A stretch of DNA of 64,000 bases. It comes from Aurantiochytrium sp. KH105. Taxonomy: Eukaryota; Sar; Bigyra; Thraustochytrida; Thraustochytriidae. Each line of letters starts with the position of its first letter. The first letter of the stretch is position 1. Below are positions 37,852-54,387 of this stretch, one piece after another. A program made the position numbers and the translations under genes. The stretch spans positions 248,001-312,000 of the forward strand of contig BGKB01000036.1 of assembly GCA_003116975.1 (NCBI GenBank), written 5' to 3'. The notes beneath the pieces were generated by a model, which was given only the letters and a program-made list of their open reading frames with translations, was not told the DNA's origin and ran no database searches.

Positions 37852-40800
37852 ATGTCCTTTGGCACCTTTGGCAGCTCGGGCGGCTTTGGCAGCTCGGGCG
37901 GAGGCGGCTTTGGTAGCTCGGGTGGTGGCGGCTTCGGCAGCAGCAATAACACTGGCGGCTCGCTATTTGGAGGCGGTGGAGGCAACACCGGCGGAGGCTT
38001 TGGCGCCTCGTCAACCGGAGGCGGCTTTGGGTCCTCGAGTGGTGGCTTTGGGTCCTCGAGCAACACAGGAGGCGGCTTCGGTGCGAGCGGCGGCGGAGGT
38101 GGCGGCGGATTTTCCTTTGGCGCCTCGAGCGCACCCAATTCGGCTGGCTTTGGATCCTCATCCAACACTGGTGGTGGCTTTGGATCCTCCAATACGGGTG
38201 GAGGTTTTGGATCCACCAACACGGGCGGCGGCTTTGGGTCCTCCAGCACAGGTGGCGGCTTTGGGTCCACGAACACGAGTGGCGGCTTTGGATCCACCTC
38301 CGGCGGATTTGGATCATCCAACACGGGCGGTGGTTTCGGGTCCTCCTCTGGAGGCTTTGGATCGACAACTAACACTGGCGGTGGCTTTGGATCGCCGAGC
38401 CAACCGTCCGGAGGCGGTTTTGGGTCTTCCGGAGGCTTTGGATCCGCCAACACTGGCGGCTTCGGGTCTACTGCAAACAATTCGGGTGGCCTCTTTGGCA
38501 GCAGTGGCAATAACAATACAAGCTCCTTTGGTGGCGGGGGCGGTTTTGGCAGCAGCTCATCCAACACTGGGTTTGGCGCGTCCAACACGGGCGGAGGCTT
38601 TGGCAATGCTGGCGCGGCCAATAATGGCGGTGCACCTGGAACCGCCATGACCCCCTTTACACCTACGCCCGACTCGGCGAGCAACAGTAACGAGACCTTC
38701 ATGACAATTACCGCCATGAATCAGTACGCCAATAAGTCCGTCGAGCAGCTTCGTTTCGAAGACTATGCTGCGGGTCGTCGACCGGGCGCAGGCGGCAATG
38801 CAGCCGCCGGCGGCGGCGGCTTTGGCGCCGCAAATACCGGTGGTGGTATGTTTGGGAGCAACAACAACGCGGCCGCCGGAAATGCGGGCGGTGGTCTCTT
38901 TGGATCCTCGAACAACACAAATGCCAGCGGCGGTGGTCTTTTCGGCAGCTCTTCGAATACGGGCTTTGGTGCAACCAACAACAACGCCAACAGTGGGGGT
39001 ATGTTCGGCTCTGGAAACAACAACAACAACAGCTCTGGAGGGTTTGGATCTCTTGGCGGATTCGGCTCGTCTTCGCAGCCGCAAAACGCGGGAGGCGGAC
39101 TCTTTGGAAGCACCAACACCAACAACAATAGCTCTGGAGGCGGACTCTTTGGCAGCTCCAACAACAACAACAACAACAACGCGGGCGGAGGCCTCTTTGG
39201 CAGCTCCAACAACACCACCAACAACAACAACGCCTTTGGAGCCTCCAACACGGGCGGTGGCGGTCTTTTCGGATCCTCGAACAATGCACAACAAAACAAT
39301 GCTGGCGGCAGCAGCTTTGGTGGCTTTGGAGCAAGCAATAATGCCAACAGCAGCGGCGGAGGCTTTGGCTTTGGGTCCTCGAACAATACCGCAGGTGCTG
39401 GCGGCGGAGGAGGCCTCTTTGGTAGCTCGAACACCAACACCAGCGGAGGTGGCGGCCTCTTTGGCAGCAGCAACACCAATACGCAGAGCAACCAGTTTGG
39501 CGCATCGAACGGCGGAGGCGGCCTCTTTGGTGGTAACACAAACACGAACACCGGCGCATCCGGCGGTGGCCTCTTTGGTAGCTCAGGAACATCGTCCTTT
39601 GGCGGTACCAACAATAACGCAGCAGGAGGCGGAGGAGGTCTCTTTGGTAGTTCGAACACCAATACCAACACCGGCGGTGGCGGCCTCTTTGGGAGCACTA
39701 CTAACACCAACAATTCGGGTGGCGGTGGCCTCTTTGGGAGCTCGAACACCAACACAGGCGGCGGTGGCGGCCTCTTTGGAAGCTCGAACACGAACACCGG
39801 CGGCGGTGGTGGTGGACTCTTTGGAAGTTCGAATACCAACACGGGCGGTGGCGGCGGTCTCTTTGGCAGCTCGAACACCAATACGGGCGGAGGCGGAGGC
39901 CTCTTTGGCAGCTCAACCTCCAACACGGGAGGCGGGGGCCTCTTCGGCGGCGGAGGCATGCAGCAGCAACAGCCGCAGCAACAGCAACAGACGGGCGCCT
40001 TTGGATCGTCGTCGCTTTTTGGCTCGACGCAAACTTCGTCCTTTATGCAGCAACCGCAACAGCAGCAGCTGCAAAACCCTATGCAGATGCAAAACAACCA
40101 GCTTCTTGCGCAGCAGCAAGCGCTTGCCCTCACAAACGGCGAGCCGTACGCCACCGGTCCTTCGAGCCAGATGGCGCGTCACATTGCGCTGGCCAAGGAG
40201 GCCTGGCAGCCCGTGGCGAATGACGAGTCCAAGGTTCGGGGCGACGGCGAAGGCGACAGCCTGCGCAAGCGGACCGGTTCTGTTTCCAAGTCTGATGTCT
40301 CCAAGACGCCGCGCCGCGGCGCTGGCGCGACTCCGATTGGCAAGGTTCAGATCCGCCCACGAGGCTACGGCCGCACCTATGGCGCTGTTGCTTCAATGGT
40401 TGAGGCCGACAATGGCACTACCCCAGAGTCGAGTTTACGCCTGGCGCGCACAGGCTCCACGCCCAACCCGAGTACGCCCAATCCGGGAGCCCCATCCGGA
40501 AAGGCCGCGGACAAGCTCCTCAAAGATAAGCCGGGCAATGGCGTCCTCAGCCCCGGAGTTTTTGATCTCAACAAGCGTCTTTCCATCAAAAAGGCGAACC
40601 GCAAGAGCACCCCTCTGCGCTTTGCGCAAACGCAAGCCATCACCTCTGGTTCCGCGTCGGTACCATCAGGCGCCAGCGAAGACGTTGCTACGCTGCTCGA
40701 AGGCGCCGATGGTCAGGATAGGGAGTCGCAAGAAGGCAAGGCCATTGATGATGGCGAAGCCAGCGTCAGACGCGAAAATAGCGACAGCCAAGACGACAAC

Positions 40801-43800
40801 TTGGGTGACGTCACCCATGAAACGCCTTCCCGTTCGGGCCGTTCGCGCTTGCGCATCAGCAAGTCGAGTCATCGGCTTGGAGAAACGGCACGAGCAATTC
40901 GCGAAGACATGGGCGGCGCCAACGATGGCGAAGAGGGTGAAAGCCTGCTGGGCACGCCTGCTCGCGCTACGATCCGCTCGCCAGATGACGATCGGCGTTC
41001 GCGAACCGCCACATCCTCGCGCAGCGCGAGACGCAAGGATCCTGTCTCGAAGCACTGCCCACGCATGAGCAAGGCCATGGCCGACGAGGGCTACAGCACG
41101 TTTCCGGCCATGTGGGATCTTGAGCAAATGGCGGACGAGGAGCTCGAGGCCGTGCCAAAGTTCCGCATCCAGCGCGAAGGCTTTGGGTCCGTAGAGTGGC
41201 TTGGCAAGGTTGATGTGCGGGACCTGGACATTGACACCTCCGTGTCCATCGAACCCATGTCTATCGAAGTGTACAAGAGCGAAGACGAGACGCCACCTCG
41301 TGGCACCAAGCTCAACCGTCCGGCAATTTGTACCATTGAGCACATGGAGATTCCTGCTGACTTTGAAGGTTCCAATGAGGACTTTAGCGAGTGGCTCCGC
41401 GAGTACACACCTCAGCTCGACGCTGTCTTCATTGACTACGACCTCGACGACTGTGTATGGACCTTCAAGGTCAAGCATTTCACGCGCTACGGTTTTACGC
41501 CTGGTTCGACCCCTTACCCGCGCTCGGGAAAGCGCCGTGGAGGCCGGAGGGATGGCCAGCAGCACCACAATAATGGCAACGACGACGACGACGAGGAGGA
41601 GGAAGAGCCTCTCGTCTCGTCTGGGGATGTTGCAATGGGCGACCAGGACCATTATGACCAAGAGGGCAACCCGGCCATGCCTGCTCTCGGATCCGGCGGA
41701 CCGGTTGGCGGTACGCCGAGCGATCTCGCAACACAAACTTTCGAGGAACGTATGGTGGTCGCCGGCTCGCACCAGGACCTGGGCCGAGGCTACATGCCAC
41801 GTCTGCTGTCCGGCGGCTCACCGCCTCGACACGGTCCGAGCCTGACCCCGTTTCGACCGCCTACGCATGCACGATCGAGTCTGCAGGGCAGTGATGGTGC
41901 TAGTGGAGCGGCAGGAAGCGCGTCGGCACCTGCGTTGCCGCCTGCGCGCGAGCCGTACTTCCCTGAGCTTGACGAGCTTGCCATCGAGGATGGCCCCACC
42001 TTTCGTATCTTTGCCGAGGCTGGTGCCAAGGTTGCAGACCGCACTAAAGCACCCGTTCGACGCCTGCATCGAGGCTTCCGCGCGAGCTGGGGTCCAGGCG
42101 GGAGGCTCGTCTTTCCTCAAGGCGCAACTGTGCGCACCATGAAGCTCAATGTTGACGATCCGACTCCGGCCGATGGCAAGCGAATCTCTGTGGTGTTGGA
42201 CGCTTGCCGTGCACATGCGCACGCCAAAAGTGTAGGACGTGAGAACGAAGCAAGTGCGGTGCTCGCAAGCACGATTGACACCCTTCTCGATGCCACCTTG
42301 TCCGGTGACGAGGCTGGATCAACAGAAAGGAAAATTTGGTCCCTCTTGCAGGCATCCTGGTTTGTAGGTGGCGCGCGCGTGTCTGATGATCTGTTGGAGG
42401 CCAGCGATGGTCCTCTCGCTTGGAGCGAATGGCGCGAAGCTCTACCGCGCGAGTGCGATGTTGCGAAAAACAACCAATCGGTTATATCGCAGAATTGGCT
42501 CGACAGTCACGACACATGGCTCAAGGCGTGGCTGTCTGCAGAAATCCCCGAGTACCTTGAGAGCGTTGCCGGGGCCTTGAGCCTCAAGGACATCGAGAAG
42601 GCGTCTGCGCTTGCCATGGCCCAGGGTGACCTGCGTCTGGCTACACTCATAAGTCAGGCTGCCGGCGATCGACGGGTGCGGGATCTCATTGCGACCCAGC
42701 TCGAGGTGTGGGAGCAAGGGCAAGCGACCGAACATATCAGCGAGGAGGTCCTCAACGTGTATCGTCTGCTCGCGGGAAACATTCAAAAGGAGCAAAGGGA
42801 CTTGACACAGCCGTGGCTGCGTGCGCTTGCACTCAACGCCTGGTTCGTGCACGACCCTCTGGACAAGCTTTCTGACAGTGTCGATTCATACGCGGCCGCC
42901 TTTGCGACAAAAGAGGCGCCCACGCCGCGACCAGCATGGTTTAACGAATTCGATTGCGAGGAGTGCTACGATACAGTCTACCATGTGATGCAGCTCATGT
43001 GCAGGCCCGGGGAGCATTCTGTCAAAGCCTTGCTAAACCCTCGCGGCTACTGTGGCAACGTTCTTAGCGCAGGTCTTGCCTGGACGCTGTGGCAGGTGAT
43101 GCGGAGCTTTGGCGTGATTGGCGGAAATGCGCTCAATGAGCTCGAGGAGCACCAGCTTGGAATGGACTACATTCTCGAGCTCGAGGCCAAGGGCGAGTGG
43201 CACCTAGCAGTTGCTGTCGCCCAGTTTCTTCCTCGCAAGGCTTTGCGCGAGCGCGCTGCCCGAGTATTGCTCGACCGGTACATGGACGCGGAGTCGACTG
43301 CGCCGCAGGCGCAGGACCGGTTGGATTTCGTCCAGGCTCTGGGCGTTCCCCAGGCCTGGTTGGCGCAGAGCACGGCGCAGCGACGTGGCTTCGACGCTTG
43401 CTGCGGCATCAACGTGCTCGAGAGCCGCCGGGCAGAGGCCGACAACTATGCGCTTGCGCAGGACGTTGCTTCGCGTTGCAAGATCATCAATGAGCACATG
43501 GCCGCGCGCGATATTCTCAATGGAGACACCGAGGATTTGCGCGGCATGATGGAGGAGTATGCCGAGACGATTGATAAAGAGGTGAAGAACAAGGCATCAT
43601 GGGCACAACGTAGTAACGTCTACTTGCAGTACGCTGTGCTGCGCCATCTCATGTCTACGGCTGCAGACGACCGGGAGGCGGCACCGCAGCGTCTGGAGGA
43701 GATTGCAGGTCTTTGCAGTAAGCTGCAGTCCAGCCTTAAAGAACTGCAGAGCAATCCAGCGACTGCGCTCGCGCCTGCGCTCGCTGCGGAGATTGGCACC

Positions 43801-43962
43801 TGGCTGCAACTTCGCGCCACGGAGCTGCTCCGTATCCAGAGCGAAGGCCGCTCTACCGTCTTTGACCACTACGAGACGGCCTTGAGCGTTCCTTCGCACG
43901 AGAAGAGTCTCCGGACGGCCGTGGCTCGCTACACGGTCTCTTTCATCGAGTCTTTTGTCTAA
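37852..43962 (+). CDS. NUP98: Nup98-Nup96 precursor nucleoporin, 2036 aa
   Basis: Residues 1-760 are an FG domain with dozens of GFGS and GLFGS repeats spaced by Gly, Asn, Thr and Ser. They are interrupted near 280-310 by a GLEBS-type motif ([20 protein letters not shown], then DYAAGRR), the Rae1/Gle2 binding site. A Gln-rich patch follows (about 703-770). The autoproteolytic domain spans about 1069-1215, with the cleavage motif reading VKHFTRYGF, so the cut would fall between Phe1210 and Thr1211. The remainder (about 826 residues) is Nup96, with [13 protein letters not shown] near its start and an alpha-solenoid from about 1564. Nup98 gates the pore channel; Nup96 belongs to the Y-complex scaffold. 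The ATG context is CACCATGT. Confidence 0.95.
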
Positions 43963-44851: not shown

Positions 44852-47800
44852 ATGGACGCGGACATCCTGCGCACGCAGCTGCGCAAGACGCTGGGGTCCA
44901 CGAGAGGGTTCAAGCTCGAGGACGACGAGGACGAGGACGACGACAAGAGCAACAGCAACGGCGACGAGGCCGCCTCCGCGTCGAGCAGCGAGGAAGAAGA
45001 CGAGGACGCAGAGGATGACGACGACGACGCAGAGGATGACGACGACGACGACGACGACGACGAGGACGCGCGTACGCCCGTAAGTCTCGCCAAACTCGCG
45101 CCCAAGGAAAGCTCTGATTCTCTTGGAGACCAAATTCGCGCGCGAACAGCAAAGAAGGCCCAGGCGGGACCCTCCGGTCTCCGCGTGGATCAGCAGAGCC
45201 CTCCACCGAGATTCAACCTCAGTGACCATGAAAACGACAACAACGACGACGATGGCGATGATGATGATGATGATGGTCATGATGACGATGACAACGAAGA
45301 AAGCGCAAGTGGGCACTTCTCTCGCGTGAGCGAAGAAGACGACGACGCAGAGAGCACGGGCGCTTCTGCTGCGAAACACGTAGACGGACACGAGGAGGAC
45401 GCGCTCGCTGCGAGTCCATCAAGTCAAACGCACGAGAGGAAGATTGCCGGGGGAGAAACCTCGATGAGCGGTGACGGCGATGATGACGATGTCGAAGTGA
45501 GCCACGCCTCCGTCCTGGATGCGTGGTCGCGTCAAATCGAGTCTTCGTTCGGTCACAAGCAACCTAAACCCAAACGTCGGAATCGAATCGGCAGCAATGA
45601 CTTTGGAGACGATGACTACTACGACGACGAGTTCGGGGAGGACAACGACTTTAATGTACGATACTCGAGCGCGCACGCTTTGCCCGCGAACGCGCAGGCG
45701 CCCTCTCCGCAGACCGACCATGACGCAGACCTGACCCCTCCCGGCGCACAGACGCGAGAGGACTTGGAGAATCTTGGCAAGACGTTCCTCCGCATCAAGG
45801 CAGAGACGGGCGCCTGGCTCGATCGCGTGCTGCATGCGTCAATCTTTTCAGAGGGCGGCCACGTCGACGCCACCGACACCTCGACCCTGTTTGAAGCGCT
45901 CAAGTCAGGCGTCATTCTCTGTCGTGTTGCCAACGCCATTTTACCGGGATGCATTCCAAGCTTTACCTCTGATTTCTCGAGTGAAGCTTCGTACAAGGTG
46001 CCGCTGAGCGAACGTGAGAATATCAAAAAGTTCATTCGCGCGTGCCACGATGCCATGAGCATTCCTGATTCGCTCCTCTTTGAGGTCGGAGATCTGCACA
46101 ATCAGCAAAATATCCCCAAGGTGGTACTGTCGTTACGCGCTGTGGCAGAGTACGCGCGTAAATTCCTCAAGTCGCCTCCAGAGGTCCACTGGCGCAAGCT
46201 GGAAAATGTGGCCTTGACAGAGGACGAGGACGCAGTGCTCATGGCCTCGGCTGAGATGTCAAAACTTGATAGTGCGACCGTCTATCACATGTATGCCGCA
46301 GAGTCTGCTGCCGCAAATGAGTCGGCGGGCTCTGCGGCGGACGCAGATGGCGCGCCGGAAAAGGCTAATTTCGAGAACCGCAAGCGCAGCATCCAAAACA
46401 ACCTCGTTCTTAATTCTCTCCTTCAACAACAGCACCAAAAGCAGCAGCAACAACAACAGTTTCGAGGCGCAGGCGGCAGCGCAAGTGGACACGCATCCGA
46501 GCCTACACCATCACCGCCCGGAACATTCGGTCAAGAGACAGCCAGCTTTGATCCAGCTTCATCGACTGCGGGAGCGTATGCTACGAGCGGCAGCAACAAT
46601 GTCAGCGGCAGTAACACTGCCAGCAGCAGTGCCAACAGCAGTAGCAACAACAGTGTCGCCCCGCCTCCAGAAACGGTAGAAGCCTGGCTCGCGGTGCAGG
46701 GCATGTCCATGTACTATGACGCATTCATCGAGGAAGGCTGGGACGAGCTGGCAACGCTCACACTCATGTCAGAGACGGATCTCCGTGACGTTGGAATCCG
46801 GAAAAAGGGTCATCTGCGTAAACTCGCAAGCGCCATTCGGCAGCTCAAGGCCCGAGGCCCTGCCGCCGTATCCGAGACCAACTCGCCGAGCTCGGCAGGT
46901 GGTCACGGCAGGACGCAGGGCGCGTCTCCTCCCGGTTCGCCGGAACGCAACATTCTTCGCCGTATGGCAGGTTCACCGCGGGGCGGTGTCGCAGCGGCAC
47001 CGAACATGGGCGCCTTGGGAACGCGAGGCTTGCATGCGATGGATCGCCGCGAGCTCTTCAACAAAGAGATGGCATGGGCACAATGTCGTGCACGCGCCAA
47101 CGTGACAATGGACTTGGAGGACGCGAGGGCCATCTGGGCATTGCTGCACGAGGTACGTTCTCAAGTGAGCCGAAGCGAGCTTTCTGCTTCGCGGCCCGTG
47201 GAGACGAGACGCGCGGTGCAGCACCTTGTTGGTCTCACCGAGGATCTTGTCCGGTCGCTGATGCCATTCGAGGCGCCTATCGTGATTGATATCGGTTGGG
47301 ACTCGCTCAAGTGCGGCTATGTGTTTAGCAAGGCGCCCGTGATGCTCCCGTGCGTCGTGGGCAAGTACTCGTTCCCCGCGCCGGGAGGGGCCGCGTCAAA
47401 GTCCCGTTCCCGGGCGCCGCGTGCCGTGTGTTCGGGGCGGAACGTTTTCGATCAGTGCCAAGCAACGTACGGTCCTGGAGCAGGGGACCGTGCGCGCCAG
47501 ATATCAGGTCTAGGCACGGACGAAGGGACCTTTATGATCCGACGGGCGATCCACCGCGGGATCGACTCGATTGTCGACCCCCAGGTCGTCGAGTGGGACG
47601 ATATGGAAATGCTCTTGGAACACATGTACCGGGATGTATTGCAAGCCAAGTCAGAGCAGCACCCCGTGTTGGTCATCGAACCCTGTCGGCGATGGAGTGG
47701 CCTCGAGCGCCAGCGCATGGCGCAAATGTTGACGACGAAATTCAATGCTCCAGCCATTTACTTTTCGCCGGCAGCCCCACTCGTTGCTTACAAGGCGGGT

Positions 47801-49273
47801 TTGAAGAGCTGCGTCGTCTTGGATTTGGGCGAGTCGCGCTCGACGGCAAGCGTCGTCTACAACAACAGACTCGTTAAGGATGCCGTGGTGAACTCGCCCA
47901 TTGGAGGCTTGCAGCTGACGGAACTGATGATGCAATCGTTGACGCAAGACGGATACGACTTCAAGTCTGTATTTGAGGCTCAGAATCCGGCGCAGTTCTC
48001 GTCGACGCGACACTTTCTCGAACAGGAGATGGCTCGCGAGGTCAAGGATCGTGTATGCGTAATTGCGAACTCGTACGAGGAGTTTTGCGTTTCGCCCGAG
48101 AGTCTGCCAGCCTATCTGGGAGACTATTTGCCCAGGGTTAGCCGTGGCGCTCCCTTTTTGAATGTGGGCGAGGCACGTGCGCATGTCCCTGAGGCCCTCT
48201 TTTCACCAGATCTCGTGCGCCGCGACCAGTTCTACAATGGCGGAAGTTTGCAACACATTATCAAGGCGGCCCTGGAGAGATGCACCGAGTCGGTGGCGGC
48301 GACGGCATCAGAGACGGTGCTCATTTGCGGCGGGATGGCGAACCTTCCGGGTCTGGCGGGCCGATTGCAAAAGGAGCTCAATGAATTGTACGCTGTGCAA
48401 TCCCGGAAGCCGCCCCGTGTTATGCTCACATCGGACGAGGATCTTGATGACGTGCTTGCAAATCCTCTGTTCACTGCATGGCAAGGTGGCAGCATGTTGG
48501 CCTTGCAACACGAGTTCCAGTCGCGCTGGATTGCGCGAGAGACCTTTTTGGAGAAGGGCGACAAGGTGTTTACCGAGACGTCTGTGGCAGAAGGTCTTGG
48601 TCCTTTTCCTCTTTACAGTCCAGACACTGCGTTGTACAAGGCAAATCGCGCCGTAAATTCGCTGCGCGATCTCCTCGCCGTTTTGTCGGAGAGCGGCGCC
48701 GGTACATCATCATCATCCGCCTCCTCTTCCTCCTCTGCACTCGCCTCGTCGTCGATGGTGCAGCCAGATACACTGACGTCGGGTCTCTCATCGTCAGGGG
48801 CAGTTGACGAGGAGGACAGCATGAGCGTGAGAGAGAATCTCTCTCCTCGCTCACTCAAGAGTATGATCAATGACGTGGCCATTTTTCTGGACGAGCAAAA
48901 GTGTCCCGAAGTGTATGTCCTCGACGTCAAGATGCACTTGTACGACCGCTACTCTCGCCAACCACCGCGCAAGAGGCTTCCTGTGGAAGAGATTTTGCTC
49001 TCGCTTCCCGACGAGCTCCTTGGCCATTTAGAGCCATACGTGTCTCTCGCCAAGGCCGAGCGTGGTCATCGCGATGGCGCGCCGGGCTCTTTGCGTTCTA
49101 GACGCGGTCAAACAGCAAAGCAACCGGCTGCCGGCGTAAAGCAGAGTGCTGCGCAATCGAGCGCCATTGCCAATCGCCAGCATTTCTCAGAGACCTCCGA
49201 GGATGACGGTCCCAACGATGATGATGACGACGATGAAGACGATGGCGAAGAGTTCTTTGCCATGGCAATTTGA
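44852..49273 (+). CDS. Calponin-homology + SAM + actin-fold fusion protein, 1473 aa
   Basis: An acidic disordered N-terminus (poly-Asp/Glu) is followed by a calponin-homology domain (about 301-438: GAWLDRVLHASIF, LFEALKSGVILCRVAN, ENIKKFIRAC). A Gln- and Ser/Asn-rich linker leads to a SAM domain (about 607-666: VEAWLAVQGMSMYYDAF, DLRDVGIRKKGHLRKL). An actin fold spans about 807-1243, with IDIGWDSLKCGY (phosphate 1), VEWDDMEMLLEHMYRDVL, VVLDLGESRSTASVVYN (phosphate 2), PIGGLQLTELMMQSL, VLICGGMANLPGLAGRLQKE (adenosine loop) and FTAWQGGSMLA, all aligning to actin landmarks. A C-terminal region of about 200 residues ends in another acidic tail. The order of the actin motifs shows a real Arp-like domain. 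ATP binding is uncertain because the loops deviate. The role is probably cytoskeletal; no family with this layout is known to me. Confidence 0.88.
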   Translation: MDADILRTQLRKTLGSTRGFKLEDDEDEDDDKSNSNGDEAASASSSEEEDEDAEDDDDDAEDDDDDDDDDEDARTPVSLAKLAPKESSDSLGDQIRARTAKKAQAGPSGLRVDQQSPPPRFNLSDHENDNNDDDGDDDDDDGHDDDDNEESASGHFSRVSEEDDDAESTGASAAKHVDGHEEDALAASPSSQTHERKIAGGETSMSGDGDDDDVEVSHASVLDAWSRQIESSFGHKQPKPKRRNRIGSNDFGDDDYYDDEFGEDNDFNVRYSSAHALPANAQAPSPQTDHDADLTPPGAQTREDLENLGKTFLRIKAETGAWLDRVLHASIFSEGGHVDATDTSTLFEALKSGVILCRVANAILPGCIPSFTSDFSSEASYKVPLSERENIKKFIRACHDAMSIPDSLLFEVGDLHNQQNIPKVVLSLRAVAEYARKFLKSPPEVHWRKLENVALTEDEDAVLMASAEMSKLDSATVYHMYAAESAAANESAGSAADADGAPEKANFENRKRSIQNNLVLNSLLQQQHQKQQQQQQFRGAGGSASGHASEPTPSPPGTFGQETASFDPASSTAGAYATSGSNNVSGSNTASSSANSSSNNSVAPPPETVEAWLAVQGMSMYYDAFIEEGWDELATLTLMSETDLRDVGIRKKGHLRKLASAIRQLKARGPAAVSETNSPSSAGGHGRTQGASPPGSPERNILRRMAGSPRGGVAAAPNMGALGTRGLHAMDRRELFNKEMAWAQCRARANVTMDLEDARAIWALLHEVRSQVSRSELSASRPVETRRAVQHLVGLTEDLVRSLMPFEAPIVIDIGWDSLKCGYVFSKAPVMLPCVVGKYSFPAPGGAASKSRSRAPRAVCSGRNVFDQCQATYGPGAGDRARQISGLGTDEGTFMIRRAIHRGIDSIVDPQVVEWDDMEMLLEHMYRDVLQAKSEQHPVLVIEPCRRWSGLERQRMAQMLTTKFNAPAIYFSPAAPLVAYKAGLKSCVVLDLGESRSTASVVYNNRLVKDAVVNSPIGGLQLTELMMQSLTQDGYDFKSVFEAQNPAQFSSTRHFLEQEMAREVKDRVCVIANSYEEFCVSPESLPAYLGDYLPRVSRGAPFLNVGEARAHVPEALFSPDLVRRDQFYNGGSLQHIIKAALERCTESVAATASETVLICGGMANLPGLAGRLQKELNELYAVQSRKPPRVMLTSDEDLDDVLANPLFTAWQGGSMLALQHEFQSRWIARETFLEKGDKVFTETSVAEGLGPFPLYSPDTALYKANRAVNSLRDLLAVLSESGAGTSSSSASSSSSALASSSMVQPDTLTSGLSSSGAVDEEDSMSVRENLSPRSLKSMINDVAIFLDEQKCPEVYVLDVKMHLYDRYSRQPPRKRLPVEEILLSLPDELLGHLEPYVSLAKAERGHRDGAPGSLRSRRGQTAKQPAAGVKQSAAQSSAIANRQHFSETSEDDGPNDDDDDDEDDGEEFFAMAI

Positions 49274-53564: not shown

Positions 53565-53648
<84 letters not shown>

Positions 53649-53649
53649 T
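53565..53649. repeat. (GTCT)n microsatellite ending at the assembly gap
   Basis: About 21 GTCT units run up to the N gap, so the array is probably longer than assembled. Confidence 0.97.
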
Positions 53650-53650
53650 T

Positions 53651-53809
53651 NNNNNNNNNNNNNNNNNNNNNNNNNNNNNNNNNNNNNNNNNNNNNNNNNN
53701 NNNNNNNNNNNNNNNNNNNNNNNNNNNNNNNNNNNNNNNNNNNNNNNNNNNNNNNNNNNNNNNNNNNNNNNNNNNNNNNNNNNNNNNNNNNNNNNNNNNN
53801 NNNNNNNNN
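53651..53809. other. Assembly gap (159 N)
   Basis: Run of 159 N directly after the (GTCT)n array, which is the likely reason for the gap. The stated length may be an estimate. Confidence 0.99.
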
Positions 53810-54387
53810 CGGCGGGACCCGGCGCGGCGCCCGGCGGGTGGGACGCGGCCCCGGCGAGCCGCGGCTAGCGACAACGGTAGGGCCAGCACCAGGAGCCCGC
53901 GCAGGTGGAACCAGGCGCCTGTGACCGGCGGAGTGGCCCCCGGCGACCGGCAGCGGCAGCTTGCGTGCAGCAGCTTGCGTGCAGAGGCCGCCGCGCGGAG
54001 GAGCAAGCGAAGCGGGACTTCTTCTGCTGCCAGCTGAGCAGGGCCGGCGGCGGCAGCGGGCGCTGCGAGGATGGAGAGGATACTATGTAGAATGATGGAG
54101 CGACAGAGATGGAGAGAAGGCGGGGCGTCGCCTCGGCAAGCAGACTTCTTTTTAGTATGTTGGACTGGATGTGACCAACGAGCAGCGCGTATGCAGCGTA
54201 TACGTGGAGAGAATGCAGCGTGAGCAAGCCGGACTCCTGGTGTAAAACTGGATGCGAACATGGAATGGAATAACAGAGGTGGAGAGAGCGCAGTGCGACC
54301 AGTTAGCTAGCCAGCCAGTCAACCAGCCAGCCAGCCAGCCAGCCAGCTGCAGCTGACAACCTGAGCAAGCCAGAATCTATTCTCCGG

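Follow-up and report, generated by a model that had tools for sequence, protein, structure and literature searches.

Most members of the actin family consist of a single domain, and to our knowledge the nearest precedent for an extended actin is filactin of Dictyostelium. Here, we describe a protein of the thraustochytrid Aurantiochytrium sp. KH105 that joins a divergent actin domain to a calponin-homology (CH) domain and a SAM domain. Its gene lies in a 64,000-nucleotide stretch of DNA (the window; GenBank assembly GCA_003116975.1, contig BGKB01000036.1, positions 248,001–312,000, forward strand), where positions 44852–49273 of the + strand form an uninterrupted ATG-to-stop frame of 1473 aa that requires no intron. 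Pfam profiles match the translation at aa 341–435 (CH; 37.4 bits, cut-off 26, E = 3.2e-9), aa 605–666 (SAM_1; 46.8 bits, cut-off 23, E = 3.7e-12) and aa 809–1239 (Actin, PF00022; 183.4 bits, cut-off 27, E = 7.1e-54). An initial annotation, made from the sequence alone, had placed these three folds in one unbroken frame and called the architecture unfamiliar; the profile matches, all above cut-off, and a second gene copy of the same kind bear out the first statement, and our literature searches agree with the second. The parts are known, and the domain content is publicly visible in the precomputed Pfam annotation of a Hondaea protein (P0002 below). For the combination, or for an actin altered in this way, the open-licence literature yielded no description, and further papers on Hondaea or on the ectoplasmic net may hold one.

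The longest stop-free run of the region spans 1617 codons, whereas none of 300 single-base shuffles exceeded 310. The 76 Mb genome searched (367 contigs) holds two copies of the gene, one on the window's contig (C36) and one on C17, each a single 1473-aa frame. They are probably alleles or the product of an unmerged assembly, since near-equal pairs are common among the 40 actin-family matches in the genome. Comparison of the two copies gives an overall dN/dS of 0.164, falling to 0.104 in CH, 0.074 in SAM, 0.057 in the actin domain with the helices ahead of it and 0.095 in the C-terminal domain; outside the domains it is 0.231 in the acidic stretch and 0.275 in the linker at aa 446–604.

The best match in the database comes from Hondaea fermentalgiana, a thraustochytrid labyrinthulomycete, and is named ‘Actin’ (P0002; 100% identity, rounded, over aa 295–1473 and 99% overall). 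Two protein searches, which covered word-selected candidates of 0.55–1.75 times the query length and so allow for a wider spread, returned the more distant relatives P0003 (62% identity), P0004 (51–53%), P0005 (46–48%) and P0006 (33%). The initial annotation had called for a search for the same domain order in related organisms: in all four, CH is followed by SAM and then Actin, each above its Pfam cut-off (CH of P0006 barely, at 26.4 bits). P0006 ends inside the actin domain, at profile position 310 of 410, perhaps through a gene-model error. We refer to the window protein and P0003–P0006 as the five family members; all five open with MDAD or MDAS, which backs the start codon. One relative, P0005, stems from QPX, likewise a thraustochytrid, which we take to be Mucochytrium quahogii. 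Its name carries the label MMETSP0098, which PMC6011583 assigns to a New York strain of QPX whose sequences come from a transcriptome project. All three domains therefore sit in one transcript-derived protein of that relative rather than in two separate genes. Among named sources, the family was seen only in these two thraustochytrids, Hondaea and QPX, and no family relatives or actins were found on viral contigs. That the relatives share the design confirms a real protein family, with three folds encoded by one gene. The long low-complexity linkers joining the domains could raise the suspicion of a fusion of adjacent genes or of assembled sequences, which is very improbable: the order is identical in both genomic copies and recurs in all four diverged relatives, including the transcript-derived one, and the frame has no stops.

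The actin domain (47276–48568) was compared residue by residue, using actin numbering carried over by alignment. It carries insertions at two places, one between the D-loop region and actin residue 79, the other after residue 199. The ‘full set’ of actin motifs read from the sequence is present by position, but the phosphate loops and catalytic residues are degenerate. Asp11, Gly13, Lys18, Asp154 and Gly156 are kept in 5/5 members, and the adenosine-side GG in the four that reach that far. In the phosphate-1 (P1) loop, DIGWDSLK (47288–47311), Ser14 is Trp in all members and Gly15 is Asp in four and Asn in one; in the phosphate-2 (P2) loop, DLGESRST (47822–47845), Asp157, Gly158 and His161 have become Glu, Ser and Thr throughout. 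Catalytic Gln137 is Ala in four members (A974 in the window protein, at 47771–47773 as positioned by the alignment) and Gly in one. No member thus has the hallmarks of conventional actin: Gln137 and His161 are replaced and neither phosphate loop is intact. Given what is known of actin, these catalytic replacements indicate that ATP hydrolysis should be lost. The domain's sequence is kept within the family (identity 311/429 aligned residues in P0003 and 101/301 in P0006), which makes a specific binding partner for its surface probable.

To compare filament contacts, we used a list compiled from general knowledge and four genes of the same genome: L005, L012 and L024, whose best PDB matches are Arp1, Arp2 and Arp4, and L019, an Arp3-like gene assigned by eye only. 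The former three matches suggest that Arp2/3 and dynactin-type complexes are likely in this genome. The window protein keeps 1 of 16 D-loop residues (Arp1 5, Arp2 4, Arp3-like 3, Arp4 1), 3 of 25 barbed-side longitudinal residues (13, 10, 8 and 8 in the same order), 2 of 13 in the plug (6, 5, 2, 4) and 4 of 14 in the target cleft (12, 6, 4, 6). On the pointed side of subdomain 4 it keeps 4 of 14 (Arp1 8, Arp3-like 2, Arp4 6), and at other lateral sites 5 of 15 (7, 4 and 3). In this comparison the clearest loss is that of the longitudinal surface; at the plug, the cleft, the pointed side of subdomain 4 and the other lateral sites, the protein is no worse than Arp3-like or Arp4 in at least one comparison.

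These counts bear on the proposal of the initial annotation that the protein is a filament cap or template, in which the actin domain would engage the filament by contacts like those of actin, kept there by CH and SAM. Arp3 is a known filament template, and the Arp3-like gene keeps equally few plug and cleft residues, a comparison that slightly raises the odds of this proposal. The full-length predicted fold also speaks for it, as does a CH type capable of F-actin binding in GAS2 (in the portion of PMC12084551 consulted). The contacts fall well short of Arp1 on the D-loop, longitudinal surface, plug and cleft, and of the Arp3-like gene on the first two. This shortfall is partly general divergence, as identity to the genome's own actin is just 100/366 (Arp1 198, Arp3-like 134, Arp4 120), and low identity leaves it compatible with such a role. 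Overall, we consider a cap or template doubtful.

The fold was predicted with two AlphaFold2 (AF2) models. The first, built from six family rows, folds CH, SAM and the C-terminal domain and leaves the actin part unfolded. The second, built from 42 alignment rows, 35 of them real actins chosen from 80 loci (L040 was excluded for an internal stop, the others for reasons of space), predicts a full-length actin fold at aa 807–1245, in keeping with the aa 807–1243 first marked out. Of 7996 word-selected candidates, a profile of the actin domain matched just one at E ≤ 1e-10, a fungal Arp4-type protein (E = 4e-20, 22%), too narrow a result to place the domain. We also built a tree with P0019, 15 actin-family rows from 26 loci of the genome and five family rows, from which P0002 and L021 were omitted as near-identical. 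Near-identical second copies of the genome's actin-family loci were mostly omitted too, but the L008/L009 and L010/L011 pairs each contributed two rows. L018 (a split gene), L023 and the later repeats of L022 were left out. The family forms its own branch, not joined to Arp4, at a weak fork. Approximately unbiased (AU) tests gave P = 0.029 for a clade with Arp1, 0.032 with Arp2, 0.054 with Arp3 and 0.009 with actin, none of which passes the Bonferroni limit for nine tests. The same tests do not reject a grouping with Arp4-type rows (P = 0.11, or 0.31 with L016 added). L014, L016 and L026 are divergent Arps that we leave unnamed.

A nuclear or chromatin Arp, grouping with Arp4-type proteins and binding chromatin factors through its acidic stretches, would fit the sole profile match, the unrejected clade and the P2 loop, which loses D157, G158 and H161 just as the genome's Arp4 (L024) does. 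Against it, the profile candidates were restricted by shared words, which makes a lone match weak, the tree does not join the family to Arp4 (at a weak fork), and in their named relatives such CH and SAM domains occur mainly in the cytoplasm. We rate this explanation as improbable.

The CH module (aa 295–445, 45734–46186; the Pfam match is 45872–46156) scores above cut-off in 5/5 members. It is of the single IQGAP/Vav/calponin type: only one CH stretch is present, so there is no tandem CH1–CH2 pair as in filamin or alpha-actinin, and single-CH proteins outrank tandem ones by both profile and fold. Its profile similarity to Vav and PIX about equals that to IQGAP. The assertion that CH domains bind F-actin was too general, since PMC12084551 describes binding by single type-3 (CH3) domains as controversial. 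A tether is possible because the module belongs to this group, within which GAS2 binds F-actin (same paper). The SAM domain (46664–46849), also above cut-off in every member, has an invariant GW on its acidic face and invariant K, GH and R on its basic face. Face charges range from −5 to −9 and from +7 to +9, respectively, across the five members; complementary ML and EH faces on one domain would be the mark of a polymerizing SAM. Self-association through SAM, already envisaged in the initial annotation, is plausible from these charges. The nearest SAM domains in sequence and fold are those of Caskin, ANKS1, SHIP2 and Eph.

The same likenesses would suit a signalling scaffold that is autoinhibited by its CH domain docking onto the actin domain (compare Vav) and whose SAM binds a receptor-like partner, with no direct link to F-actin: CH is as near to Vav and PIX as to IQGAP, and SAM is near Eph and Eph-binding SAMs. 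However, Pfam searches of the window protein up to E = 1 found no GEF, GAP, kinase or GTPase-binding domain, nor any IQ, RasGAP-related, GAR, ankyrin, SH3 or phosphatase domain, and we regard this role as unlikely.

Several segments outside the three named domains are also conserved. The basic and hydrophobic N-terminal segment MDADILRxQLRKTLGS (aa 1–20, 44852–44911) is identical to P0003–P0006 at 14/20, 15/20, 14/20 and 9/18 positions. Along with the helices immediately ahead of the actin fold (aa 726–806, 47027–47269; from the alignment and predicted structure), it is conserved to varying degree in all members. The acidic low-complexity stretch at aa 21–294 (44912–45733) is poorly conserved in family alignments; inside it, near aa 218–230, lies a short motif, HASVLDAWSRQIE, present in 4/5 members (segment identity 14/18, 14/18 and 12/18 in P0003–P0005 and 3/18 in P0006). 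Past the actin fold, aa 1244–1275, a helical domain (aa 1331–1404, 48842–49063) and an acidic tail are conserved in the four members that extend that far. The three-fold architecture first described thus stands but had missed this fourth, helical domain, which is predicted in the six-row model with a block-mean pLDDT of 82–90 over most of its length and 65 and 74 at its ends. A protein query with this domain returned only the two gene copies among its best candidates in the genome. No Pfam family matches the helical domain above cut-off (best E = 0.019, DUF1409, in one of four members), and a four-sequence profile searched against PDB up to E = 10 found only uteroglobin (E = 1.2), which is not credible. 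By eye it resembles the C-linker of cyclic-nucleotide-gated channels, a candidate we dropped because no such PDB chain appears up to E = 10. The acidic tail (49211–49273) ends with an aromatic residue and AM(AI) before the stop; it is present in 4/5 members, the fifth stopping earlier, with identities of 15/18, 12/18 and 7/12. Pfam finds no WH2 motif at E up to 10 in P0002–P0006 or up to 1 in the window protein (P0001).

We favor, with a probability of about 0.42, a cytoskeletal scaffold. The SAM domain would oligomerize the protein head to tail through its acidic and basic faces, and the IQGAP-like CH module would anchor the assembly on actin filaments or on a partner at the cortex. The actin domain would be a pseudo-actin, no longer a polymerizing ATPase, whose conserved new surface binds partners as a structural hub. 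Nuclear and dynactin Arps act as such hubs. The ectoplasmic net of labyrinthulomycetes, a unique structure with an actin cytoskeleton inside and largely unknown parts (according to sections of PMC12221091), may for that reason be a natural place to look for the protein. A conserved fusion of an actin with altered catalytic residues to a CH domain of a filament-binding group and to a self-associating type of domain makes a tangible and testable candidate for an actin structure specific to the lineage. If the scaffold reading is right, it also shows that a large scaffold can take up a pseudo-actin as one of its modules.

A number of points weigh against the scaffold. The 35 real actins in the AF2 alignment pull the second model towards actin; in the six-row model the actin part is mostly below 60 per block, with Foldseek TM scores by target of 0.23–0.26 and an rmsd of 17.9–22.3 Å among the 50 matches listed. 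Contact loss is weak evidence and by itself compatible with work at a filament, because the Arp3-like gene is equally poor in plug and cleft residues. CH domains of Vav and PIX are regulatory, and the CH profile match to GAS2 (E = 0.018) is far weaker than that to Vav (7e-9). Face charges by themselves are no proof of SAM polymers, and the linker at aa 1276–1330 has a dN/dS of 1.50 between the copies, on 5 changes. F-actin binding by single CH3 domains is termed controversial in the available part of PMC12084551, and the candidate table for the ectoplasmic net in PMC12221091 names no such protein, as compared by description.

An acidic tail with a terminal aromatic residue resembles Arp2/3-binding acidic motifs. 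A bolder version of the scaffold would be a labyrinthulomycete invention, in which a retired actin sits at the center of a polymer built by SAM and clamped to filaments by CH, and the tail recruits Arp2/3 to organize the bothrosome or the net; we view this as a long shot.

The gene neighbors are all ordinary. Upstream (37852–43962) is a Nup98-96 precursor gene in one frame, with FG repeats, a GLEBS motif and an autopeptidase domain; downstream are a histidine-biosynthesis family protein and an NAD glycerol-3-phosphate dehydrogenase. An N run beside short simple repeats lies at about 53600–53900.

Further actin genes are of note. L113 (G000:C20, 429–5636) is a 1735-aa frame with four Actin stretches, equivalent to about two tandem actin domains and a fragment, followed by Roc and COR-A and with a weak TIR_2 match below cut-off. 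This actin–ROCO fusion is possibly stranger than the CH–SAM–actin protein; a second copy near G000:C121:90035–92032 is known from actin matches only. L008–L011 (G000:C2 and C194) are divergent actins in which the open frame extends about 290–500 aa ahead of the actin domain (starts approximate), with no other Pfam match. L027, L028, L035 and L045, on contigs filed as cyanobacteria or other bacteria, are actin genes 77–94% identical in their best segment to those of the thraustochytrid, probably eukaryote contamination or transferred genes.

Compared to known systems, the family shares with actin and Arps (PF00022) the full predicted fold, the adenosine-side GG and the P1 Asp, Gly and Lys; it differs in its replaced catalytic Gln and His, two altered phosphate loops, unconserved D-loop and separate branch. 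With Arp4/BAF53 (ACTL6A) it has in common a degenerate P2 loop and weak sequence similarity, though a common clade was not recovered (nor rejected), and Arp4 is not known to carry CH or SAM; L024 has neither. The CH group is shared with IQGAP/Rng2 and GAS2 by profile or fold, but these are not known to have an actin domain, and the window protein has none of their IQ, RasGAP-related or GAR domains. Its SAM is nearest to those of Caskin, ANKS1, SHIP2 and Eph, without their ankyrin, SH3, kinase or phosphatase domains. Filactin likewise carries its actin domain after a long N-terminal extension (PMC2441452); that actin domain is near conventional actin, with no CH or SAM mentioned in the part of the article consulted, whereas the actin domain of the window protein is divergent.

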